Source: a virus. From it: a DNA stretch of 20,429 bases. Positions 3,141 to 20,376 of the stretch are shown piece after piece. Under the pieces are notes generated by a model. It saw nothing but the letters and a program-made list of their open reading frames with translations, was not told the DNA's origin and made no database searches. Location: positions 1 through 20,429 of IMG/VR virus record IMGVR_UViG_3300032011_003906; one strand, written 5' to 3'. Numbering within the stretch: position 1 is the first letter of the stretch; each line of letters opens with the position of its first letter. The translations under genes were made by a program, and so were the position numbers.

Positions 3141-3338
3141 ATGTCGATACTGGCTTTTATTGCTATTTACGTGGTTTTTTTGAATGGCATATCAAATGCT
3201 AAAGTAATTAGATATGGAAGACGTAAAATTCATTATAGACAACCTTTGGATTTTGATATCAGCTTTGTTGGTATTTATTATGCATTTAGGTTTCTCAAGT
3301 TTAGAGGTCGGCTTGACAAGACAGAAAAATACAGTTAA
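3141..3338 (+). CDS. Possible short upstream ORF overlapping amt (doubtful)
   Basis: A 65-codon frame starts at ATG 3141, 7 bases after the octamer at 3126-3133, the same geometry as other genes here. The first 20 residues (MSILAFIAIYVVFLNGIS) would form a signal or membrane segment, but the rest overlaps the amt start by 125 bases in a different frame and looks like shadow sequence (rich in Arg, Tyr, Phe). It could be a leader peptide coupling translation to amt, which lacks an obvious Shine-Dalgarno, or it could be chance. Confidence 0.22.
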   Translation: MSILAFIAIYVVFLNGISNAKVIRYGRRKIHYRQPLDFDISFVGIYYAFRFLKFRGRLDKTEKYS

Positions 3339-4428
3339 TGTTTTGTTCAAGAATCTTTTTATTATTAGTATTGGTTTAATCAGTTATGCTTTAATAGGTT
3401 TTAATACAATGTATCCCGGTGAGCTATTTAATGGCTGGCTGAGCATAGGCGGGCCTATCGGCTTTTCAGATGATACTGCAAATCTAACAAAAGCATATGC
3501 TGACTATACATATTGGACAGATTTTCTGTTTCAAGCTATGTTCGCAGCAACAGGAGCAACAATAGTGTCAGGAGCAGTAGCGGAGAGGGTAAAATTATCT
3601 TCTTTCTTATTATTTGCTACTTTATTAGTTGCTATTGCTTATCCTATTTCTGGAGCTTGGAAATGGGGAGGAGGATTCCTAGATAAAATGGGATTTTATG
3701 ATTTCGCAGGTAGTAGTGTTGTGCATGCCTTCGGAGGGTTTGCTGCTTTAGCTTGTGCTTGGCTTTTAGGGCCTAGGGCAGATAAGTATAAGGACGGTAA
3801 AATAAACGCTCTACCGGGCCATAGTATGCCTTTAGTGGCTATTGGCGTTTTCCTACTGTGGTTTGGTTGGTATGGGTTCAATGGGGGTAGCGTATTAAGC
3901 GCAGATCCCGCCTCTGTATCCCTTGTATGCGTTACGACATCCCTTTCGGCTGCAGCCGGTGCTCTATCTGCGATGCTTTTTTCTTGGTTTAAATCAAAGA
4001 AGCCAGATTACACTATGACAACGAATGGCGTGCTAGCCGGATTAGTGGGCATAACCGCAGGAGCAGACGTAGTTGGCATTTGGAGTGCATGTGCAATCGG
4101 GGCTATCGCCGGTATTATATTATGTTTCGCTTCCTCTTTTATTGAGAGAGTAATTAAGATTGACGATCCAGTCGGTGCTATCGCTGTTCATGGAGTGTGT
4201 GGCGTATGGGGAACCGTTGCCGTAGGCATATTTTCTTCAGAGCATTCAATACTAATTCAATTATTTGGAACATTAATAATAAGTTTATTTTCTTTCTTAT
4301 TTTCTTTGTTAGTATTTGGTAGTATTAAAAAGACATTAGGAGTTAGAATAAATGGTGAGCTAGAGGCTAAGGGTCTAGATCTTCTAGAACATGGGCATAC
4401 AGCTTATCCAGATTTTCAAGTAAGTTAA
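3214..4428 (+). CDS. amt: Ammonium transporter (Amt/MEP/Rh family)
   Basis: The 404-residue inner-membrane protein has about 11 hydrophobic segments and the Amt signatures in order: TRQKNTVN near residues 35-42, the SGAVAERVK stretch (119-127), the signature DFAGSSVVHAFGG with D163 and H171, and DDPVGAIAVHGVCGVWG with H326. H171 and H326 match the twin pore histidines of E. coli AmtB (H168, H318) and D163 matches D160, so the channel should conduct. Length is normal for the family. No signal peptide is seen, as in the MEP-like branch. It is preceded by a terminator and an octamer box and followed by a perfect terminator, so it is monocistronic. Presence beside terminase and portal genes makes it a phage auxiliary gene for ammonium uptake or for control of N metabolism. 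Confidence 0.95.
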   Translation: MEDVKFIIDNLWILISALLVFIMHLGFSSLEVGLTRQKNTVNVLFKNLFIISIGLISYALIGFNTMYPGELFNGWLSIGGPIGFSDDTANLTKAYADYTYWTDFLFQAMFAATGATIVSGAVAERVKLSSFLLFATLLVAIAYPISGAWKWGGGFLDKMGFYDFAGSSVVHAFGGFAALACAWLLGPRADKYKDGKINALPGHSMPLVAIGVFLLWFGWYGFNGGSVLSADPASVSLVCVTTSLSAAAGALSAMLFSWFKSKKPDYTMTTNGVLAGLVGITAGADVVGIWSACAIGAIAGIILCFASSFIERVIKIDDPVGAIAVHGVCGVWGTVAVGIFSSEHSILIQLFGTLIISLFSFLFSLLVFGSIKKTLGVRINGELEAKGLDLLEHGHTAYPDFQVS

Positions 4429-4527: not shown

Positions 4528-5481
4528 ATGAACATAGAATCTCTTTATGTGATTGTCGGTTTTCTATTAGCTTCTTATTCTGTTATCGCAAATGATTCAG
4601 TCCAAACATTAGGAACGTGGATAGCTTCTAATTCTAAAAAAATTAAATGGTATTATTTATGGAGCGCCGCGAGTTCGGTTCTTCTATTTACTATTTGGTA
4701 TGGGTGGACAGTAAACGATGGCGACATATCATACGGAAGACTAGAAAAGATACCTTACCAGACTGTTCAATGGTATCATGCTCTAGCGCCTTTAATATTA
4801 GTGGCTTTAACTAGGTTCGGGGTTCCTGTAAGTACCACCTTCTTAGTGTTGTCGGCTTTCGCCAGCACTCTTATTTTAGAGAAGGTTTTAGTTAAGTCTG
4901 CTATGGGATATGCGGTCGCAGCGTCAGCAGCTTATGTTATATGGCTAGTTGTGTCTAAATATTGGGAAACTGATAAAGACATACCTGAAGAAAAAGAAAA
5001 ACTATGGAGGATTGCTCAATGGGTGACAACAGGCTGGCTGTGGTTCACGTGGCTTTCTCACGATATGGCTAATATAGCAGTTTTCTTACCTAGGCAAGTA
5101 CCTGTAGAAACTATGATTTTAGTAAGTACCGTTTTCGTGGTCGGCTTGGGTTATATGTTTTTTGAAAAAGGAGGTAGGATACAAAAGATAGTACTTTCTA
5201 AAGCTAATGTAAATTATGTTAGGTCTGCTACTATTGTTGATTTAGTTTACAGCTTAATACTTTGGTTCTTCAAAAGCTACAATAGCATACCAATGAGTAC
5301 TACATGGGTATTTGTGGGTTTACTTGCCGGGAGAGAGTTAGCTTTTGTTACGACTAACTCCTTAGGAGACAAACATAACATGAAAGTAGTTTTTCCCATG
5401 TTGTTAAAAGATTTTCTTAAAATGATGGTGGGCCTTGCTATATCGGTTGCTATGGTATTATCTATTCACTACTTGCTTTAG
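4528..5481 (+). CDS. pit: PiT-family inorganic phosphate transporter
   Basis: The 317-residue inner-membrane protein has the duplicated PiT signatures: ANDSVQTLG (residues 21-29) with GVPVSTTF (98-105) in the first half, and SHDMANIAVF (177-186) with SIPMSTTWVFVG (253-264) in the second. These are the phosphate- and cation-binding halves of the low-affinity Pit/PHO4 carriers. Length is at the short end; the central cytoplasmic loop is reduced to about 20 charged residues. ATG 4528 is chosen because it follows a sigma70 promoter with no room for a Shine-Dalgarno. It follows the amt terminator, so N and P transporters are switched separately. No strong terminator follows. Phage-borne phosphate uptake fits a virus whose nucleic acid demands much P; the effect on flux is inference. 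Confidence 0.92.
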   Translation: MNIESLYVIVGFLLASYSVIANDSVQTLGTWIASNSKKIKWYYLWSAASSVLLFTIWYGWTVNDGDISYGRLEKIPYQTVQWYHALAPLILVALTRFGVPVSTTFLVLSAFASTLILEKVLVKSAMGYAVAASAAYVIWLVVSKYWETDKDIPEEKEKLWRIAQWVTTGWLWFTWLSHDMANIAVFLPRQVPVETMILVSTVFVVGLGYMFFEKGGRIQKIVLSKANVNYVRSATIVDLVYSLILWFFKSYNSIPMSTTWVFVGLLAGRELAFVTTNSLGDKHNMKVVFPMLLKDFLKMMVGLAISVAMVLSIHYLL

Positions 5482-5902: not shown

Positions 5903-6157
5903 ATGGCAGAAATAGAAAATAAATATGAAGACAATGTAGAAGGTAAATACTTCGTGGACGACGAATGCATAGACTGTGACGCATGTAGAGAAATGGCTCC
6001 TAGTAACTTTATAAGAAATGAACAAGAGGGATACTCTTACGTCTACAAACAACCCGAAAATGACTTAGAAGAAAAAGAATGCCAAGAAGCCATGGAGGGG
6101 TGCCCTGTAGAGGCTATAGGGGAATATGTTAAGAACAGGCCCTTTTCCGCAGATTAG
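5903..6157 (+). CDS. Single-cluster [4Fe-4S] ferredoxin
   Basis: The 84-residue acidic soluble protein carries CIDCDACREMAP with Cys22, Cys25 and Cys28 and the distant CPVEAIG with Cys67, the C-x2-C-x2-C...CP pattern of one-cluster bacterial ferredoxins. Cys60 is an extra cysteine. The middle (QEGYSYVYKQPENDLEEKE) fits the family where a second cluster has been lost. It would carry one electron at low potential in the cytoplasm; the phage or host partner (reductase, ribonucleotide reductase, desaturase, nitrogen or sulphur enzyme) is not in the window. It lies just downstream of the transporter island and has its own octamer promoter. Confidence 0.88.
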   Translation: MAEIENKYEDNVEGKYFVDDECIDCDACREMAPSNFIRNEQEGYSYVYKQPENDLEEKECQEAMEGCPVEAIGEYVKNRPFSAD

Positions 6158-8181: not shown

Positions 8182-8619
8182 TTATTTTAGTTCTTTTTTT
8201 AGCTCCTTAATAAGCTCAGGAAGATTTTCTTTTATCTCGCGCTTCTCAAGTTGTTTATCATACCCCGCTTCTCCCGCTTTGTATAAATATGGGTAAGATC
8301 CGTTTTTGGGAAGTTGTTTTTCAATTACAAGTAATTTTAATCTGTCATTTGGAACTATCATTTTGGTCCCGCGATCTGTCATGTAAAAAATTGTTTTTAA
8401 AAAACCGACACGGACTATGCGAGCCTGCCTTCCTGAGATATATAAAATATCATCGTTACAGAAGTCTTTGCCTATGCATATTAAGAGGCCTTCTGCTGCC
8501 TTATGAATAGCGTCTTTACCTAAAATAGCGAGAAAGGCAAAAACCACTAACCATCCATACTTCCCCATTATATGCTCTATTAATTTAGTAGTCGCGGGGT
8601 CTATAATTGTTTGTTCCAT
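8182..8619 (-). CDS. Mini-MscS-like protein A: one TM helix plus MscS beta domain
   Basis: The 145-residue protein has an N-terminal amphipathic part, one membrane segment (about residues 22-50, YGWLVVFAFLAILG followed by AAEGLLICIG), and then NDDILYISGRQARIVRVGF (55-73), TIFYMTDRG and TKMIVPNDRL (85-94). This follows the middle beta domain of the mechanosensitive channel MscS, where FR.GE.VDLGG.AG.V and the VIPN motif occur; VPN is intact here. A Lys/Glu-rich helical tail ends it. MscS itself has about 286 residues and three TM helices, so the first two helices and the large C-terminal cage are absent. It is a paralogue of 8678-8998, divergently transcribed from a 58-base shared region. Confidence 0.6.
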   Translation of the reverse strand: MEQTIIDPATTKLIEHIMGKYGWLVVFAFLAILGKDAIHKAAEGLLICIGKDFCNDDILYISGRQARIVRVGFLKTIFYMTDRGTKMIVPNDRLKLLVIEKQLPKNGSYPYLYKAGEAGYDKQLEKREIKENLPELIKELKKELK

Positions 8620-8677: not shown

Positions 8678-8998
8678 ATGGAAGATCAAATCGCAAATGC
8701 CGGTCAAAATTTCATCGGCGAAAACGGTTGGTTACTCGTTGCGGGAGCAGCGGGTTTAATTTTTAAAGAGACTATAACTAGCTTTGCAGCTGCTATATCC
8801 ATGTCTCTTTTCGGAGGAATCAAAACTGATGATGTTTATAGTATGGGCGGAAGAGCCTGTAGAGTAGTGAGAGTTGGAATAAGATCCACAACTTTCTACT
8901 TCGCAGACACTAAAACTCGCGTAGACATAGCAAACGAAGACATTAAAGGTTTAAGACTCGAAAAGAAGATAGCCCCAATGGACGGAGAACGCAAATAA
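8678..8998 (+). CDS. Mini-MscS-like protein B: one TM helix plus MscS beta domain
   Basis: The 106-residue product has a short polar N-terminus, one Gly/Ala-rich membrane helix (about residues 17-46, with GWLLVAGAAGLIF), then KTDDVYSMGGRACRVVRVGI (49-68), STTFYFADT and RVDIANEDI (81-89). This aligns with the MscS middle domain (GE.VDLGG.AG.V..V.I.STT...D.K...IPN..I) with IPN changed to IAN. The start ME..I and the order of parts match protein A at 8182-8619, so the two arose by duplication and inversion or separate gain. Lone TM3-plus-beta units could form a small pore, act as holin-like proteins, or modulate host MscS; all three are inference. It is followed 11 bases later by phoH. Confidence 0.62.
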   Translation: MEDQIANAGQNFIGENGWLLVAGAAGLIFKETITSFAAAISMSLFGGIKTDDVYSMGGRACRVVRVGIRSTTFYFADTKTRVDIANEDIKGLRLEKKIAPMDGERK

Positions 8999-10129: not shown

Positions 10130-10450
10130 ATGTCTAAATATAAAAAAGTAACTTACTGTGATCAATGCGGCTGCTCTAACCCTTGGGTTCTTTCGAAGGT
10201 CTCTTCTTTAATGGAGTCTCCGAATTTTTGTTGTTCTTGCGGAAAGCCGCTCAAGAAACAAGCCTTAAAAAAAGAAGAGAATAAAGCCAAAACAATCATA
10301 GAAGAGAAAAAGGAGTCTTTTGTTGTCCCGGATGATATAGAGCCTCTTGAATTAGATATCGAAGCTTGTGTCTTCGGGGCAAAAAACTCTCAGCCATTGT
10401 CAAATTTATTGAAACCTGTACCGCAAGAAAAACCAGAAGATGGCGGCTAA
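10130..10450 (+). CDS. Zinc-ribbon protein (106 aa)
   Basis: The N-terminal 40 residues form a zinc ribbon: CDQCGC (Cys10, 13, 15) and CCSCGK (Cys34, 35, 37), the CxxC...CxxC pattern with knuckle turns. The middle is Lys/Glu-rich, the end acidic and Pro-rich, both probably disordered. It would bind nucleic acid or RNA polymerase; placement immediately upstream of the sigma-like gene, which it overlaps by 11 bases, makes a transcription-related role attractive but unproven. Confidence 0.65.
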   Translation: MSKYKKVTYCDQCGCSNPWVLSKVSSLMESPNFCCSCGKPLKKQALKKEENKAKTIIEEKKESFVVPDDIEPLELDIEACVFGAKNSQPLSNLLKPVPQEKPEDGG

Positions 10451-11138
10451 AAAAACAAAAAAGAAAAAAATAGATTTTGAAGGCAGTATAGATACTATAA
10501 ATGAAGAGATAAACAAAAGAAAAGGGAAATGGACTCTAACCTCCATAACTTGGATGGATTTCGAAGACATTTCTCAGATTTTAAAAATCCATATATTTAA
10601 AAAATGGCATTTATATGACCAGTCCAAACCTTTATTACCTTGGCTTAATAGGATAATATCCAATCAATTAAAAAACCTAGTTAGAAATAACTACACAAAC
10701 TACTGCAAACCTTGCGTTAGATGCGCAGCGGCCGAATCAGAGTCGGCTTGTTCTATATACGGAACACAAGATACTAGATGCCCCCTTTATGAGCGCTGGG
10801 TATCGAAAAAGAAGTCGGCTTACGATGTGAAGATGGCTCTCCCGCTAGAAAACCATAAATCAGAAATAGACAACAGAACCGAGGAGTCTATGAACATTGA
10901 AAATGCTATACTAAAAATGCACCAAAAACTCAAAAAAATATTAAAGCATAATGAGTGGGTTGTTTACGAGGGTTTTTATATAAAGAATAAACCTGAGCAA
11001 GAAATAGCTAAAGAATTAAATTTTAAGACTTCAGAAAAAAATAGGTGTCCCGGATACAAGCAAATTAAAAATATTCAAAAATCTATTATAATTAAGGCTA
11101 AAAAAATCTTAGAAAAGGATGACGTAGACTGGATATGA
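10440..11138 (+). CDS. Sigma-factor-like protein, T4 gp55-type, with Cys insertion
   Basis: In this 232-residue protein, after a very basic start (KKTKKKKK), residues ~36-88 look like sigma region 2: WMDFEDISQILKIHIFKKW then LLPWLNRIISNQLKNLVRNNY, the D(I/L)SQ..... PWL.RI..N pattern of core-binding and -10 recognition helices. A cysteine-rich insert follows (Cys89, 92, 95, 104, 114), probably a zinc knuckle. The C-terminal 183-222 (PEQEIAKELNF ... YKQIKNIQKSI) is a helix-turn-helix like region 4. Small phage sigmas of this size, such as T4 gp55, direct late transcription from TATAAATA boxes with no -35. Such boxes occur near the structural genes here. It is the first gene of the run leading into the packaging module. 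Confidence 0.62.
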   Translation: MAAKKTKKKKIDFEGSIDTINEEINKRKGKWTLTSITWMDFEDISQILKIHIFKKWHLYDQSKPLLPWLNRIISNQLKNLVRNNYTNYCKPCVRCAAAESESACSIYGTQDTRCPLYERWVSKKKSAYDVKMALPLENHKSEIDNRTEESMNIENAILKMHQKLKKILKHNEWVVYEGFYIKNKPEQEIAKELNFKTSEKNRCPGYKQIKNIQKSIIIKAKKILEKDDVDWI

Positions 11139-13196: not shown

Positions 13197-15050
13197 ATGT
13201 GGTCTTCTCCGGAAAAATACCTCAGAGAGGTCGATGACGTTAACACTAGATTAGCGAAACTAGAAGGCTTCCTAGAAGACAAAGAAGCTAAGATAAGTCT
13301 AGCAGAATTCCTAAGAAACAATTTATATTTTACGACATATCTCCTTACAGGAATAAAGTTAGCCCCTTTTCAGGAGATCACTTTAAGGGGTATGTTTAAT
13401 AGAAACTTTAGTATGTGTGTCTGGGGCCGTGGTTGCGGTAAGTCGTTTATTGCTTCTGTATATTGCTTCCTTCAGTGTATATTTGAACCTAACACAAAGA
13501 TACTTATAGCTGGCCCAACTTTTCGTACAGCTAGGTTTATTTTTAACAACATAGAAAAAATCGTTGAAACAAAAGAGGCTATTTTATTAGCTCAAGCTTT
13601 CGGAGCTAAGACGAAAAGAAACGACCAATACGAATGGAAAATAAATGGAGGCACTATAACAGCTATCCCGTTAAGTGGTGAAAAAATACGTGGTTTCCGT
13701 GCTAATATACTTGTCCTAGATGAGTACCTTTTATTGCCAGAAGATATTATCAGAAATGTTTTAATGCCTTTCTTGGTTGCCCCTCAAGATATGAAGCGTC
13801 GTATGGAAGTTAAAGAAGTAGAGGATGATCTTATAAAGAAAGGGGCGCTTAAAGAAGAAGATAGAACTAAGTTTGAAAATAAATCCAAGATGATAGCTTT
13901 GTCTTCTGCTAGCTACACCTTTGAGAATTTATACAAAACTTACCAAGAATGGATTGCTAAAATTCAGTCCCCAGAGGACCTAAGTGACGCAAAATACTTT
14001 GTGTCCCAAATGGGGTACGAAGCCTTGCCAGAAGAGATGATCGACAGAACAATTATTGAGGAGGCTCAAGAAGGAGGAGCTTCTCACTTTTCCTTCCAAC
14101 GAGAATATTGTGCTCAATTTACTGACGGAAGCGATAGCTATTTTAGTGCTAAAAAAATGGAGACATGCACACTAAAGGGAGAGGAAGAACCTTGTACATT
14201 AATGGTGGGCAGAACAGGTAAGCGCTACGTATTAGGTATTGACCCTAATATGAGCGATAGTCCGACGGCCGATTACTTTGCTATTGCCGTAATGGAAATT
14301 GATGACAACACGGGACAGGGAACTTTGGTTCATTCTTACGCGGGGCTAGGCAGTTTAAATAATCATGTAAAATATTTAGCTTATTTACTTCAAGCTTTTA
14401 ATATTGTTTTTATATGCCTTGATAATGCTGGATCTGATACTTATTTAGATAGTTGTAACGAGTCTCAATTTTTTAAAGATGCTAGAGTAAATTTAAAAAC
14501 CATACCCTTAAACTCAGACGCAGAAGGCTTAGAGTATCAAAAATCGCTAAGAACAGCTAAATTAAAATATAATCAAGAAAATAATCAGATTTGTTTTAAT
14601 CAAGTTTTTACTAGTAATTTTATTCGTAGAGCTAATGAGTATCTTCAAGCTTGTATAGATTATAAGAAAATTTGGTTTGCTTCGAGAACAGCTTCCAATG
14701 AGGTCTTCTTTAATAGGACTAGCTCAATTAGACTACCATATCCCAAAAAACTTATATTTATAGAAGATAGAAAAGAATGGTCAATGCTTGATTTTATTGA
14801 GCATCAAGACGATATGATCTACCAAACCAAGAAACAATGTAGTTTAGTGGAGCATAAAGCTACCTCTAGGGGCTCTCAGAATTTCGACCTACCACAACAC
14901 CTCAAAAGGTCTACCTCCCCTAACAAGGCTAGAAAAGATAATTATTCTGCTTTAATGTTGGCAAATTGGGGGCTTAAGCTGTATAACGATATAAATAACA
15001 CAGAAAGTACAATTAATAAGGAAAGTTTTGAGCCTATTATGTTCTTTTAA
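13197..15050 (+). CDS. terL: Terminase large subunit
   Basis: The 617-residue protein has the two terminase domains. ATPase: Walker A WGRGCGKS (residues 76-83), LIAGPTFRTARF (103-114), Walker B ILVLDE (171-176) and coupling motif IALSSAS (233-239). Nuclease (RNase H fold): VLGIDPN with D349, then FICLDN with D409 and acidic residues near the end (IEHQDDMIY). It cuts concatemeric DNA and pumps it into the prohead through the portal. Start ATG is 3 bases after the XPF stop. TATAAATA at 14990-14997, within its end, may be a promoter for the fibre and portal genes. The adjacent nuclease, portal and structural genes confirm a packaging module. Confidence 0.95.
   Translation: MWSSPEKYLREVDDVNTRLAKLEGFLEDKEAKISLAEFLRNNLYFTTYLLTGIKLAPFQEITLRGMFNRNFSMCVWGRGCGKSFIASVYCFLQCIFEPNTKILIAGPTFRTARFIFNNIEKIVETKEAILLAQAFGAKTKRNDQYEWKINGGTITAIPLSGEKIRGFRANILVLDEYLLLPEDIIRNVLMPFLVAPQDMKRRMEVKEVEDDLIKKGALKEEDRTKFENKSKMIALSSASYTFENLYKTYQEWIAKIQSPEDLSDAKYFVSQMGYEALPEEMIDRTIIEEAQEGGASHFSFQREYCAQFTDGSDSYFSAKKMETCTLKGEEEPCTLMVGRTGKRYVLGIDPNMSDSPTADYFAIAVMEIDDNTGQGTLVHSYAGLGSLNNHVKYLAYLLQAFNIVFICLDNAGSDTYLDSCNESQFFKDARVNLKTIPLNSDAEGLEYQKSLRTAKLKYNQENNQICFNQVFTSNFIRRANEYLQACIDYKKIWFASRTASNEVFFNRTSSIRLPYPKKLIFIEDRKEWSMLDFIEHQDDMIYQTKKQCSLVEHKATSRGSQNFDLPQHLKRSTSPNKARKDNYSALMLANWGLKLYNDINNTESTINKESFEPIMFF
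14990..14997 (+). promoter_or_regulatory. T4-like late promoter box inside the terL end
   Basis: TATAAATA, an exact match to the T4 late octamer, 79 bases before ATG 15077. It encodes residues of terL as well, so it could be chance in an AT-rich genome. Confidence 0.35.
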
Positions 15051-15076: not shown

Positions 15077-16108
15077 ATGCCATTTAGTATTAACACAGGT
15101 CAAATAGATGCGCCAGCTTTTAGGCGCTATTTTAACGAAAAGCTTTCTGGTTCAAATTCTTACCTTTCAGGATTCTATACTCATGATAATAGGTCAGGTT
15201 TTATTTCTTTAACAGAAGGAGGACCGAACTCTTTTACTGGGTATAGTGGGGATATTATGTCTAGGGTTTCTGGCTTGTCTTCTCAACTTAGTGGCACTTT
15301 GGATGTTTCTGGAGAGTTAGCTTGGCAAAAGTCCGTAGATGTTTCAGGACATGCCGAAACATATACTAATTCTGCGAGCGGTTACCTACAATCAGAAATA
15401 GAAACAGCTTCTGGTAATTTTGCTACAGTTAGCGGCGAGTTCCTTAAGTCTGGAAGTTTTTATCATTCTGGGTCGGGGGACTTTAAGGCTTCCGATACGA
15501 TAACAGGGGCTTTAGCTTTTTCTTCCGGGCATGACGATAGTTTCGGTCTTTTTGTTGCTAGTGGAGATACAACGACCAGCGCAGGATGGATGAAGTTAGC
15601 AGGCTACCCAGAAATGACTGGTTATGTTTCTGCCTCTAGCGGAGATATAAAAAGTAGCCTTAACGCTACTGGCCTTGATCTTAATAATTCCATATATAAC
15701 ATAACCTCAGAATCTTCTACTGTCTTTGGAGCGGAGAAAACTTTTAACTCAGGAATAAAGACTGATAAAGTTACTTTTGGTAACGGGGCGGTTAAACTCA
15801 TAGCTAATGAAAATGAATCTATAACTTTTAATGATGCTAGCGGAGCGTTACTTACGCTTGCTGGCGGATACGGAACTGACGCTCCAGTCTTTTCTGTCAC
15901 AGATAAAGCAGGCATGCCTTTAATGGACATTTTCGAAGATGACGTAATTAATATGGGTCCATACGGCAAAAATATATTTAGCATCAGTGGGCAAAAGATA
16001 GCGATGCAGAATCTACCAGTTTACCCTAACACTGGAGGCTTAGACAACGGAACATTGTATGTTAGCGGTAGTACTACTGCTGGCGGAAAACATTTAATGA
16101 TAATTTAA
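15077..16108 (+). CDS. Fibre-like structural protein with SG repeats (343 aa)
   Basis: The protein is rich in Ser, Gly, Thr and Asp. Residues ~20-160 repeat a short pattern in which an SG dipeptide follows a hydrophobic strand (SGFISL, VSGLSSQLSG, LDVSGELAW, SASGYLQSE, TVSGEFLKSG), suggesting a trimeric beta fibre. Residues ~225-343 (FNSGIKTDKVTFGNG, ASGALLTLAGG, GTLYVSG) look like the beta-strand repeats of tail-fibre or appendage proteins. No enzyme motif. Its place between terminase and portal is unusual for a tail fibre, so a head fibre, neck whisker or decoration fibre is possible. The portal ATG follows 1 base after its stop. Confidence 0.6.
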   Translation: MPFSINTGQIDAPAFRRYFNEKLSGSNSYLSGFYTHDNRSGFISLTEGGPNSFTGYSGDIMSRVSGLSSQLSGTLDVSGELAWQKSVDVSGHAETYTNSASGYLQSEIETASGNFATVSGEFLKSGSFYHSGSGDFKASDTITGALAFSSGHDDSFGLFVASGDTTTSAGWMKLAGYPEMTGYVSASSGDIKSSLNATGLDLNNSIYNITSESSTVFGAEKTFNSGIKTDKVTFGNGAVKLIANENESITFNDASGALLTLAGGYGTDAPVFSVTDKAGMPLMDIFEDDVINMGPYGKNIFSISGQKIAMQNLPVYPNTGGLDNGTLYVSGSTTAGGKHLMII

Positions 16109-16109
16109 A

Positions 16110-18014
16110 ATGACAAAGAAAGAAAATAAAAAAGAGGAAGTAAAACCAATGATGACAAGCTTTGCCTCGTCTGCTTATACGACTACGGAACAGTCTTCGA
16201 GGACACGTAGGAATGTAGGAGGACAAATAGAGAGGACAAATAGGTTTGAAAATATTGAGAATGGTTTAGTTCCTTTTAAGTACACAAAAGGAGTTAAGAA
16301 TAAAAGCTCTCTTAACGTAAGAGATGCAGTTGTACTTTGCCAAAAAGCTTATTATAATTTTGCTGTTTTCAGAAATGTTATTGATTTGATGACGGAGTTT
16401 TCTTCTACTAATTTATACTTTACAGGAGGAAGCAAAAAGTCAAGAGATTTTTTAAGCGCTTTATTTAAAAAGATTGACATGCAAAGTTTCCTAGATAGAT
16501 TCTTTAGAGAATATTATCGTTCTGGAAACGTATTCATACATAGGTTTGATACTAAACTTCAGCCCGAAGATTTTAAAAAGATAACTCAAACTTACGGAGC
16601 CTCTTCCTTGTTGAGCAGCTCTTCTGAAGGGACTTTGCCTTCTAGGTATATAATTCTTAATCCAGCCGACATAGAAATGGGAGGAAATATATCTTTCTTC
16701 TCTGGTCAGTACTACAAAGTTCTTAGTGACTACGAATTAGAGAGACTTAGGAACCCAAGGACAGAAGAAGATAAAGAAGTTTTCGATTCCTTAGATCCAG
16801 ACACGAAGAACGCCATCCAACAAATGAGAAAAGGAAAGAGTCTAGGTTTACTATCTCTTAAACTAGATCCTAAAAAAGTTACCCCTGTATTCTACAAGAA
16901 GCAAGATTACGAACCCTTTTCTGTTCCGTTGGGGTACCCTGTTTTGGAAGACATAAACTGGAAGTCTGAAATGAAGAAGATGGATATGGCTATAACTAGA
17001 ACGACAAACCAAGCTATACTTTTAATAACTATGGGCTCTGAGATGAAAGACGGAAGCCTTAATGTTAATCAAAGAAGTATAGAGACAATGCAGAAACTTT
17101 TTGAAAACCAGTCTGTTGGTAAAGTTTTAGTATCCGATTATACTACTCAAGCTAAATTTGTTATTCCTGATATCGCTGGTATATTAGATCCTAGGAAATA
17201 TCAAGTTGTTAATCAAGACATACAAATGGGGCTTAATAATATTCTAGTTGGTGAAGAAAAGTTTGCTAACACTAGTATCAAAGTTCAAGTTTTCATAGAA
17301 AGGCTAAAGCAAGGACGAGACGCTTTTATAAATCAATTCTTAATTCCAGAAATAAAAACAATTTGTAAATCTTTAGGCTTTAAGAATTTTCCAACGCCTC
17401 ATTTTGAGGAAATAGAGCTGAAGGATAAGACTACTTGGAATAGAGTTGTTGCCCAACTTCTTCAATACGGAGTATTAACACCTGAAGAGGGCATGCAAGC
17501 TATAGACTCTGGCAGACTACCAGAGACCAGCGAGTCGATAGATTCACAAAAGAGATTTAGGGATCTAAAAGAAGAGGGATTATATTCTCCTTTAATTGGC
17601 GGCGGTAACCAAGATGGCAACCAAGCTGGAAGACCAGAAGGAGAGACTTCTCCTCAAACCACAAAGAAGGTTTCTCCTATAGGGGAAAATACTGTGGGGA
17701 GCGCTAAATTTAGCGTAGAAAAAATAAAAGAGAACCTTGCTACAGCTCAGAAACTTGAGGCTCAGGTTCAAGAAAGCTTAAAGCTGAAATATGAGAATAA
17801 AAGAGTCACCAATAAGATTAGATCAATATCAGATCAAATCTGTAAAGTGATTATGGCTAATGAACCAATAGATAAATGGCTTGAAAAAAGTAAAGATTAT
17901 ATTGAGAATCCAGTAGACACAAATCATAACAGAGTAGAGGAGATAGAGGCTCTAGCTTGCGAACATCAAGTAGATGACTATTTAGCTAGCTTGCTTCTAG
18001 AAAGTAAAATTTAA
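16110..18014 (+). CDS. Portal protein
   Basis: The 634-residue protein follows the fibre-like gene in the order expected after terminase. It has a disordered, charged N-terminus, then typical portal sequence: VRDAVVLCQKAYYNFAVFRNVIDLM (residues ~70-95), FLDRFFREYYRSGNVFIHRF (~125-145), a core with DINWKSEMKKMDMAITRTTNQ (~280-300), and INQFLIPEIKTICKSLGF near 400-418. The last ~110 residues form helices that would be the crown. Dodecameric portals join head and tail and are the channel for DNA. The first ATG has no Shine-Dalgarno; ATG 16149 has GAGGA about 9 bases upstream and could be the real start, giving 621 residues. Confidence 0.85.
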   Translation: MTKKENKKEEVKPMMTSFASSAYTTTEQSSRTRRNVGGQIERTNRFENIENGLVPFKYTKGVKNKSSLNVRDAVVLCQKAYYNFAVFRNVIDLMTEFSSTNLYFTGGSKKSRDFLSALFKKIDMQSFLDRFFREYYRSGNVFIHRFDTKLQPEDFKKITQTYGASSLLSSSSEGTLPSRYIILNPADIEMGGNISFFSGQYYKVLSDYELERLRNPRTEEDKEVFDSLDPDTKNAIQQMRKGKSLGLLSLKLDPKKVTPVFYKKQDYEPFSVPLGYPVLEDINWKSEMKKMDMAITRTTNQAILLITMGSEMKDGSLNVNQRSIETMQKLFENQSVGKVLVSDYTTQAKFVIPDIAGILDPRKYQVVNQDIQMGLNNILVGEEKFANTSIKVQVFIERLKQGRDAFINQFLIPEIKTICKSLGFKNFPTPHFEEIELKDKTTWNRVVAQLLQYGVLTPEEGMQAIDSGRLPETSESIDSQKRFRDLKEEGLYSPLIGGGNQDGNQAGRPEGETSPQTTKKVSPIGENTVGSAKFSVEKIKENLATAQKLEAQVQESLKLKYENKRVTNKIRSISDQICKVIMANEPIDKWLEKSKDYIENPVDTNHNRVEEIEALACEHQVDDYLASLLLESKI

Positions 18015-18016
18015 TC

Positions 18017-19177
18017 ATGAGCGAAAATAAAGATAATATTCAAGATGTGAACCAGTATATGGGCGGGGTAGATATAGACTTGGTTGTTCCCGACATACCC
18101 TTACCTCCTGAACCAGAAGAAAAGAAAGAGGTTAAAGATGAAGTAGAAGGAGCTTTTAAGTTTGCTTTTATTGGCGCTGGACAAGGAGGATCTAGAATAG
18201 CAGAGAGCTTCCATAAACTCGGCTACAGAAAGATAGGCATTGTTAACACAGCCCAACAAGATTTAAATACTATCAATGTTGAGAATAAACTTTGCATTGG
18301 AGCAGGTGGAGCCGGAAAGGACAGAGCTGTTGCCGCAAAGTGCTTCGACGAAAGAAGAGACGATGTTTTAGATTTTATGAGAAGGTCTTTTGGAGAAGAC
18401 GTAGATAGAATCTTTGTTTGCGCAGGAGCAGGAGGAGGTTCTGGCGCGGGGACTTTAGTTCCTTTAGTGAAGACAGCTCAGGAGTTACAGGAGACTATCC
18501 ACTCTGATTCGAAAAAGGTAGGAGTTATTCTTGCCTTGCCTAAGTATTCAGAGGGCAGGAGGGTCAACGCTAATGCTTATGCCACACTAAAAGAAGCTTG
18601 TGACTTAGTTGAACAGGGAGTTGTTTCTCCGCTAGTCATCATAGATAACGAAAAAACTAGCAAGATATATTCTAATGTCTCTGTATCGAATTTTTGGCAG
18701 ACTGCTAATATGAGTACAGCTGGAGTATTTCATCTATTTAATATGACAGCTTCAAAAGATAGCTCTTATTCTTCTTTTGACTCTAGTGATTATAAAAGTG
18801 TGCTAGATTCTGGAATTACTATTTTCGGCGCTACTCCGGTTCCTCAATGGGACGACCCGGTAAGTATTTCTAGAGCTGTTAGAAGTATAGCTCAAAGCGG
18901 AAGTATGTCTGGCGGCATTGACGTCTCTACCGCAAACGCAGCAGGAGCCATTCTCATTGGCGGAAAAGAAGTTCTTGATAACATTCCCCAATCTAATCTA
19001 GATGAAGCTTTTGACCAATTAACTAGAATTTTAAAGTCTGGAAGTGTAGTACATAGAGGAATATATAGTGGAGACAAAAATAATTTGACTGTATTCACTA
19101 TTATTGGCGGCATTTCAACTCCTAGCGACAAATTGAAAGAACTAATGAAGCTCGGGGATTTAGAAGAAACCTCTTAA
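18017..19177 (+). CDS. Tubulin/FtsZ-like GTPase in the structural module
   Basis: The 386-residue protein carries the tubulin-superfamily GTPase motifs in order: FIGAGQGGSRI (51-61, nucleotide-binding loop T1), NTAQQDL (77-83), IGAGGAGKDR (94-103, T3-type loop), the signature CAGAGGGSGAGT (135-146, T4) and SFDSSDYKSV (253-262), which matches the T7 loop with acidic residues needed to hydrolyse GTP across a filament contact. A C-terminal FtsZ-like half follows (IFGATPV, AILIGG, VFTIIGG). The first ~45 residues are acidic and Pro-rich. Phage relatives are PhuZ and TubZ, but here the closest loops are FtsZ/CetZ-like. It starts 2 bases after the portal stop, so it is expressed with head genes. 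Role in capsid placement or blocking host division is inference. Confidence 0.88.
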   Translation: MSENKDNIQDVNQYMGGVDIDLVVPDIPLPPEPEEKKEVKDEVEGAFKFAFIGAGQGGSRIAESFHKLGYRKIGIVNTAQQDLNTINVENKLCIGAGGAGKDRAVAAKCFDERRDDVLDFMRRSFGEDVDRIFVCAGAGGGSGAGTLVPLVKTAQELQETIHSDSKKVGVILALPKYSEGRRVNANAYATLKEACDLVEQGVVSPLVIIDNEKTSKIYSNVSVSNFWQTANMSTAGVFHLFNMTASKDSSYSSFDSSDYKSVLDSGITIFGATPVPQWDDPVSISRAVRSIAQSGSMSGGIDVSTANAAGAILIGGKEVLDNIPQSNLDEAFDQLTRILKSGSVVHRGIYSGDKNNLTVFTIIGGISTPSDKLKELMKLGDLEETS

Positions 19178-19206: not shown

Positions 19207-19233
19207 TGTAATATCGAATATAAATAACAGGAG
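19207..19233 (+). promoter_or_regulatory. Tandem octamer boxes and strong RBS of gene 19243
   Basis: TGTAATAT (19207-19214) is followed by a perfect T4 late box TATAAATA (19219-19226) and a Shine-Dalgarno AGGAG (19229-19233) 9 bases before ATG 19243. A start about 6 bases after the TATAAATA box would fall at ~19232, so transcripts from that box would lose the Shine-Dalgarno; those from the first box would keep it. Confidence 0.55.
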
Positions 19234-19242
19234 AAATTTATT

Positions 19243-19836
19243 ATGGCATCAAAAGACACAGTATTCAATTTAAACACGCAAAAAGGAAGTAAGCTAACGT
19301 ACTTGACTGACCCTACAGCAGCGGGAAAGATAAAGTACCTAGCTGGTACTACAACCCCACAAAGCGCAGCAGATGTAGACACAGGGATAACAGGAATAGT
19401 CATTCCAATCGGACACGGGGCTTTAGATTTAGGTCAAGGCACTTCAGATGGGTTAAACCAAATTGGCGACCCCGCAGAGAAAAATTACTCTTTAACAAGT
19501 GGAGATTTTCAAATTACAGGACCTTCTGCCGGTATAGCAGAAAAAGACGGAGGAGCTCAGAAGTTTGTAAACGCTGTTCTCGATAGCGCTTATGTTGCTT
19601 ACGACTCGGGCGTTAAGCAAGGAAGCGGTCTTTCTAGCATGACTATTTCAAGAGGAGACCTAACTTTAAACAATAGTAAAGTAACTGGTATTTCTGGAGT
19701 AGTCAATACTTATTCAAGGAGTTATAGCGTAACATTCGGTTATAAACAGTCAGGTATGCTAACTGCTGGAGCCACTGCGGCATTACCAGATATTTCTAAC
19801 GATTTAGCTACTGAAGGTGGAGATGGACCGTTCTAG
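19243..19836 (+). CDS. Probable abundant virion protein (197 aa)
   Basis: The protein begins MASKDTVFNLNTQKGSKLTYL and is beta-rich with many Gly, Ser and Thr, few Cys or Trp, and a C-terminal part (RSYSVTFGYKQSG) of strand type. It has the strongest expression signals in the window: two promoter boxes, AGGAG, a good ATG context and a perfect terminator directly after. That fits a major virion component such as a tail tube, decoration or small capsid protein; I cannot choose among them. At 197 residues it is short for a major capsid protein. A minus-strand frame at 19203-19403 is a shadow. Confidence 0.6.
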   Translation: MASKDTVFNLNTQKGSKLTYLTDPTAAGKIKYLAGTTTPQSAADVDTGITGIVIPIGHGALDLGQGTSDGLNQIGDPAEKNYSLTSGDFQITGPSAGIAEKDGGAQKFVNAVLDSAYVAYDSGVKQGSGLSSMTISRGDLTLNNSKVTGISGVVNTYSRSYSVTFGYKQSGMLTAGATAALPDISNDLATEGGDGPF

Positions 19837-19865
19837 TCCACTTAGTTAGTTCTGTTATTTATAGA

Positions 19866-19892
19866 AAACCCCCAATTCACTTGGGGGTTTTT
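19866..19892 (+). terminator. Intrinsic terminator after gene 19243
   Basis: AAACCCCCAA, loop TTCAC, TTGGGGGTTT: a perfect 10-bp stem running into a T stretch to 19892. It closes the structural transcript. Confidence 0.93.
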
Positions 19893-19924
19893 GTTTTATT
19901 TTTTTTAAAATTTTTAAAAATAGG

Positions 19925-19932
19925 TGTATAAT
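19925..19932 (+). promoter_or_regulatory. Octamer promoter for gene 19945
   Basis: TGTATAAT, 12 bases before ATG 19945. TTAAAA near 19905 could act as a weak -35 at about 17 bases. Confidence 0.5.
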
Positions 19933-19944
19933 ATTTTAGGCCGA

Positions 19945-20376
19945 ATGAATCATTTAGACGTAGAGTTTTATTGTACTGGACAAGCCGAACCCTTAAATAG
20001 GGAAGACGAGGCTATAGAGTTCTCTTCAAAGCTAGCAAAAGCTCTACAAAATAAGATGGAAAAGCATAATCTATCTAACGATAAGAATATAACCTTAGAT
20101 ACGTTGAAGATGGCTTTTACGAACGCTTTAACTCATTCCCTTAGTTCTTCTTGGGCTTTAGCAAAAGTTAATATGTTTCTAAATTCTTCTAGCGCTGGCT
20201 ATATAGATGACTCTGATCATTTTGAACCTTCTATGGAAGAGATTAAAGAAGCAGAGAGAGAAATTAAAAAATATGGCTTAGAGAATTATGAATTCAATAG
20301 CGCCGACGATTTATATCTACAAACAGACAAAGAGCTTAGGGCAGATGCTCAAAAGTGGATAGACAACTTAAATTAA
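19945..20376 (+). CDS. Unknown helical acidic protein (143 aa)
   Basis: ATG 19945 is chosen over the in-frame GTG 19924 because the promoter octamer lies within the extension. The product begins MNHLDVEFYCTGQ and is mostly helical and acidic, with a Ser/Ala-rich middle helix (LTHSLSSSWALAKVNMFL, near 61-78) and a Lys/Glu-rich C-terminal helix (EEIKEAEREIKKYG). No signal, membrane segment or known motif. It starts a new transcript after the structural terminator; another gene begins 6 bases after its stop. Confidence 0.65.
   Translation: MNHLDVEFYCTGQAEPLNREDEAIEFSSKLAKALQNKMEKHNLSNDKNITLDTLKMAFTNALTHSLSSSWALAKVNMFLNSSSAGYIDDSDHFEPSMEEIKEAEREIKKYGLENYEFNSADDLYLQTDKELRADAQKWIDNLN

Follow-up and report, generated by a model that had tools for sequence, protein, structure and literature searches.

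A portal-linked tubulin-like GTPase in uncultured marine siphovirus-type phages and its possible role in virus assembly

Phage tubulins have been described chiefly in jumbo phages that form a nucleus and in plasmid-like TubZ systems; TubZ acts together with TubR to move plasmid DNA. The TubZ of phage c-st partitions a plasmid prophage, while PhuZ filaments deliver empty capsids to where packaging takes place (PMC7950403). PhuZ is non-essential and missing from a whole clade (PMC11724907), and TubZ needs a flexible C-terminal tail (PMC5322520). A further tubulin-like gene is described here from a stretch of 20,429 nucleotides of viral DNA (IMG/VR record IMGVR_UViG_3300032011_003906, positions 1 to 20,429; hereafter the window). 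The gene at 18017-19177 of the window is referred to as TUB, and literature searches found no paper describing its family.

The TUB GTPase site and predicted fold

The features of TUB, in window coordinates, are the following:

18017..19177, + strand: TUB, tubulin/FtsZ-superfamily GTPase, 386 aa (ORF, Pfam, PDB, AlphaFold model, relatives)
18017..18154, + strand: disordered N-terminal tail, aa 1-46 (pLDDT <50 over aa 1-38)
18077-18106, + strand: D-x3-P-D-I-P-x-P motif (PDIPxP) in the tail, aa 21-30 (conserved in relatives)
18173..18196, + strand: T1 loop GAGQGGSR, aa 53-60 (mean column conservation 98.6%)
aa 77-82 of TUB: T2, NTAQQD
aa 97-102 of TUB: T3, GGAGKD
18422..18451, + strand: T4 loop AGAGGGSGAG, aa 136-145 (alignment of relatives)
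18773..18793, + strand: T7 loop SFDSSDY, aa 253-259, with D255 and D258 catalytic (aligned to FtsZ NVDFADV)

An earlier note on this DNA had read the gene as a tubulin-superfamily GTPase with intact T1, T4 and T7 loops, and both parts of that reading were borne out. The ORF is intact from its ATG start through 386 aa in the ORF listing of the window, and its product matched Pfam Tubulin PF00091 (E=7.1e-11; 43.2 bits, cut-off 33), Tubulin_2 PF13809 (E=4.6e-8) and, among PDB sequences, TubZ 4ei7 (E=2.4e-14) followed by further TubZ and FtsZ entries. Judged by sequence, the superfamily match is far beyond chance. Residue conservation was counted over 63 distinct complete relatives, in which T1, T3, T4 and the two aspartates of T7 show practically no variation. 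D255 and D258, aligned to the FtsZ NxDxxD motif, are each present in 63/63, as are the T4 glycines G137, G139-141, G143 and G145. The T4 signature GGG[TS]G[SAT]G occurs in TUB as GGGSGAG, with S or T at position 142 in all 63, and T7 position 253 of the family is S, A or T, i.e., without the Asn of FtsZ. Broken T4 or T7 loops, named beforehand as evidence against a filament-forming GTPase, were thus not encountered.

An AlphaFold2 model built from 27 family members (pLDDT 81, pTM 0.82) displayed the two-domain tubulin fold with a central helix H7; the GTPase domain begins at about residue 48, H7 spans aa 223-246, and the C-terminal domain covers about 265-366. The model gave 994 fold matches in the PDB at E<=0.001, of which the top 50 are all TubZ, FtsZ or CetZ; the best solved match is the B. 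thuringiensis TubZ protofilament (TM 0.74, E=3.7e-24), with FtsZ and CetZ next. Among predicted viral structures the best match is A0A6J5RW92, an 'FtsZ Cell division GTPase' of an uncultured Caudovirales phage (E=1.7e-32, TM 0.81, 26% identity), which is longer than TUB (452 aa vs 386 aa). Support for the fold and for the active site is good, and TUB is very probably a polymerising GTPase, with polymerisation itself a property that we infer.

The two tails of the protein differ in length. The N-terminal tail measures 40-76 aa across the family, and its motif retains P25, P28 and P30 in 63/63 relatives and D26 in 60/63, with E at that position in 3/63; the C-terminal tail extends only 2-17 aa beyond the last helix in the 63 relatives.

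Relation to known tubulins

In a superfamily tree, the TUB sequences grouped as a single clade (bootstrap 100), set off by a long stem and lying apart from cellular FtsZ. An approximately unbiased (AU) test rejected a position of TUB inside bacterial FtsZ (p=0.0005) but did not discriminate among the other groupings, whose p values were 0.51 with TubZ, 0.61 with TubZ plus the phage-G type, 0.31 with the phage-G type, 0.16 with all FtsZ as one group, which is not rejected, and 0.057 with CetZ, represented by one sequence only. TubZ entered this comparison through PDB alignment rows and other plasmids, in place of the c-st and pXO1 records. A recent copy of a host ftsZ, set out in advance as the outcome that would overturn the reading, is rejected by the tree and the AU test. 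By sequence comparison and in view of the AU results, TUB is an ancient lineage of its own, built like TubZ, and no recent host gene; to the phage and plasmid tubulins, a known kind, it adds a new branch.

TUB shares with FtsZ and CetZ the GTPase core, T1-T4 and the two T7 aspartates, and its GGSRIA and NTA-QDL resemble CetZ. The earlier note had placed the loops closer to FtsZ/CetZ, but this was not supported: plasmid TubZ is the best match in sequence as well as in fold, T7 is without the FtsZ Asn, and the score against the FtsZ equivalog TIGR00065 lies below the cut-off (54.1 bits vs 295). The C-terminal tail is also too short for an FtsZ C-terminal peptide.

The TubZ proteins compared were those of B. 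thuringiensis (2xka), B. cereus (4ei7) and phage c-st (3v3t), which belong to type III plasmid partition. TUB resembles them in its best sequence match (the 4ei7 score when searched alone, 6e-18 as a profile), in its fold, in a T7 of the type F-D-x-x-D/E, and in being encoded by mobile or viral genomes; however, identity is about 20%, TUB is portal-linked, and its short C-terminal tail contrasts with the long flexible one of TubZ. These likenesses, together with the partition role of c-st TubZ, would fit a TubZ-type function in which TUB filaments act on the phage genome, segregating or centring it via an unlinked DNA-binding adaptor. On plasmids, small ORFs immediately precede tubZ-like genes, which also speaks for such a function; however, no TubR-like small ORF was found adjoining TUB, and repeats near TUB were two- or three-copy ones at chance level, with no iterons among them. 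A TubZRC cassette is accordingly rejected for want of a TubR partner or iterons near TUB. Neither integrase nor ParB was detected in 12 large records of TUB phages, on which basis a plasmid-prophage lifestyle was rejected as well. With the gene in the virion block rather than in a replication or maintenance region, and with no long C-terminal tail, DNA positioning is an unlikely explanation, albeit one deserving consideration.

PhuZ of phiKZ-like phages resembles TUB in being a phage tubulin, in the late cargo positioning proposed for it, and in having whole clades without the gene. It differs in a weaker fold match (TM 0.54, E=3.9e-13), in that TUB carriers encode a siphovirus-type tail-tip J protein, and in gene position: phuZ has no portal neighbour in the stretch of phiKZ that was read, and the contrast with PhuZ drawn in the earlier note holds as far as this check extends. 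The phiKZ shell protein (chimallin) had no sequence match in 8 incomplete carrier records, with the phiKZ record matched as a control; a phage nucleus in TUB carriers was rejected on these 8 records, and since no phiKZ-like shell protein was detected by sequence search, the PhuZ delivery target is probably absent or different here.

In a search of 50,697 phage records, the sole tubulin match was gp138 of Bacillus phage G (E=2e-7, 23.7% identity), a putative FtsZ-like protein of the same superfamily; however, its gene lies among nucleotide-metabolism and uncharacterised genes without an adjoining annotated portal, and it groups with a Pontibacillus plasmid protein. A relative of phage G was also present in IMG/VR (3300042923_001771, 175 kb), with an FtsZ-like protein 66% identical.

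The portal neighbourhood, selection and the clade without TUB

TUB is carried by about 95 IMG/VR loci of an uncultured siphovirus-type lineage, on contigs of up to 158 kb; a single-sequence search gave at least 63 loci, and a profile search was taken to the best 80 of 200 candidate relatives. Genes for DNA polymerase, ribonucleotide reductase, RIIA, a clamp loader and the central tail fibre J protein occur in large relatives, which indicates that the carriers are large siphovirus-type phages. TerL matches in the same 50,697 phage records reached at most about 30% identity among the matches listed. No bacterial-genome or proviral relative of TUB was found in genome contigs with the family alignment, in a scan that depends on short conserved peptides. 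The phage records are fragments, and partners missing here could sit elsewhere in the genomes.

The neighbourhood of TUB in the window comprises the following features:

10440..11138, + strand: sigma-factor-like protein, first gene of the conserved block (phrog_1740, E=1.4e-6)
13197..15050, + strand: terminase large subunit, TerL (Pfam Terminase_6N, E=2.7e-7; phrog_2, E=9.2e-25)
15077..16108, + strand: fibre-like gene in the variable TerL-portal slot (comparison of loci)
16110..18014, + strand: portal protein of 634 aa, ending 2 nt before TUB (PDB fold matches)
19219..19226, + strand: TATAAATA, late-promoter-like motif before the gene following TUB (8/41 relatives keep the motif at 21-25 nt)
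19243..19836, + strand: fast-evolving 197-aa ORF after TUB (dN/dS about 0.2)
19864..19892, + strand: strong intrinsic-terminator-like hairpin past the end of the 197-aa ORF, ahead of the following head gene
19924..20376, + strand: 150-aa ORF, first of the downstream head block (19924 homologue, cl6, cl9, cl10 and cl12 in relatives)

The model of the upstream protein is itself weak (pLDDT 59), and portal PHROGs were matched weakly by two relatives of the gene; all 27 of its PDB fold matches at E<=0.001 are phage portals, connectors or neck complexes, among them the G20c, T4, HFTV1 and T1 portals. The earlier statement that TUB lies 2 bases from the portal in the head block was therefore upheld. 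Genes downstream of TUB had no family matches in Pfam and PHROG-type searches and are called head genes by position only. Across the loci, the order is sigma-like gene, 369-aa gene, ERCC4 nuclease, TerL, a variable fibre slot, portal, in some cases c23, and TUB, followed by a variable slot, the 19924 homologue, cl6, cl9, cl10 and cl12. TUB follows the portal in every locus examined, either immediately or after a single tail-fibre-like gene (c23), and the gap is a few nt in most of the directly adjacent loci; the portal-GTPase linkage, proposed earlier as a check in relatives, is thus kept in all of them. The TerL-portal and TUB-19924 slots are two insertion hot spots holding differing fibre-like or accessory genes (e.g., in loci L048, L064 and L193).

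The 2-nt gap leaves no space for a promoter or terminator between portal and TUB, TUB has no TATAAATA of its own, and the two genes are likely co-transcribed. A T4-type late motif is enriched within the window; however, among the relatives compared the motif is not conserved upstream of TUB, portal or TerL, and for this reason late expression of TUB is put forward as presumptive.

Conservation of TUB was compared with that of its neighbours over 20 loci. Mean pairwise identity was 0.714 for TUB, 0.718 for TerL, 0.625 for the portal and 0.650 for the cl10 family; by this measure TUB equals TerL in conservation and exceeds the portal and the cl10 family. The dN/dS of TUB against close relatives was 0.015-0.031, with synonymous sites near saturation. 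A sister clade shares the TerL, portal and head genes but lacks TUB, which was present in that position in 0/80 loci of a second scan with portal homologues (at least 80 loci in all). Relocation of TUB elsewhere in this clade was considered and rejected, as the family profile and Pfam found no TUB in its records of 132, 118, 109 and 97 kb, all of them incomplete. In TerL, portal and joint trees, rooted on a distant outgroup or at the midpoint, the TUB-less clade is nested among carriers, and the window clade joins the TUB-less clade with support 1.0. Because of this nesting, the trees suggest that TUB was lost once, in the TUB-less clade, and on that reading TUB appears dispensable in some settings, like PhuZ. 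Head assembly as such would not need TUB, as the sister clade keeps TerL, portal and head genes.

These observations bear on two further explanations. A static part of the procapsid, i.e., a scaffold or portal-associated core that retains the tubulin fold but forms no dynamic filament, would suit a gene between portal and head genes, the usual site of core and scaffold genes; however, the catalytic aspartates and the entire GTP site are invariant, and TUB is missing from the sister clade, whose head genes are the same, so that this explanation is very improbable. Slightly better, but still improbable, is a host-division blocker that disturbs the host Z-ring late in infection, for which only the superfamily relation to FtsZ can be cited, although a loss in one clade would fit a host-dependent role. 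A simple poison would, however, have no need of the intact GTPase site and T7 that TUB keeps under strong purifying selection, and TUB is distant from FtsZ by its equivalog score, which makes TUB-FtsZ co-polymerisation unlikely. Known phage division inhibitors, e.g., lambda Kil, are small, unrelated peptides. Kil is named in PMC9372555.

In gene content, only TUB and a ClpP-like family are present in 5/5 large carriers and 0/4 large non-carriers. The family includes a ClpP-family protease at L151:5671-6414, which fell into one cluster with L391:12513-13334 (Pfam CLP_protease, E=1e-27). A role as head protease is conceivable, and the family is offered as a lead to a partner only.

A possible role in assembly or packaging

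The reading we favour, at somewhat under an even chance, is that a TUB filament organises virus assembly or packaging in the cell, the choice of cargo being a guess. It is favoured because of the portal linkage and because TubR, iterons, integrase and ParB were not found in the searches above; against it count the lack of a sequence match to the phiKZ shell and the sister clade with its head genes but no TUB, and gene position by itself is no proof of function. In this view, TUB would be a tubulin built like TubZ that hydrolyses GTP and forms filaments, produced alongside the portal from the head-assembly transcript and presumably expressed late. Subunits would polymerise head to tail, with the T7 aspartates of one completing the GTPase site of the next, and the dynamic filament would move or position an assembly cargo, which could be procapsids, the packaging site marked by the portal, or the pool of viral DNA present at that site. 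This cargo may be recruited via the conserved N-terminal tail rather than via a C-terminal tail or TubR, and the N-terminal tail is a likely cargo or anchor site. Positioning of procapsids or of packaging sites by TUB, suggested in the earlier note, is a plausible and leading idea, with the capsid transport by PhuZ as a precedent. It is possible, though doubtful, that the portal-linked filament represents a third functional class of phage tubulin that joins procapsids and DNA for packaging in nucleus-less phages, with an N-terminal proline motif as anchor in place of the customary C-terminal tail. If the assembly reading is true, filament-based spatial organisation of bacterial virus assembly is wider than thought, and the TUB-less clade offers a natural comparison for changes in assembly or host upon loss.

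Several other genes of these phages were observed. In the window, an ammonium transporter (PF00909, E=2e-115; 3214-4428) adjoins a PHO4-type phosphate transporter (PF01384, E=1e-5; 4528-5481), and TATAAATA precedes both genes; the best homologues of the AmtB are from Neomarinimicrobiota and Bacteroidota at 58-59%, which is not decisive for the host. A small 4Fe-4S ferredoxin (Fer4_13, E=3e-21; 5903-6157) lies beside the transporter genes, and a divergent pair of paralogues is found at 8182-8619 (- strand) and 8678-8998 (+ strand), one of them weakly like the MscS beta domain. A 116-kb relative encodes a Radical SAM/SPASM enzyme (L152:5792-7123, E=3e-15) between its head and tail genes.
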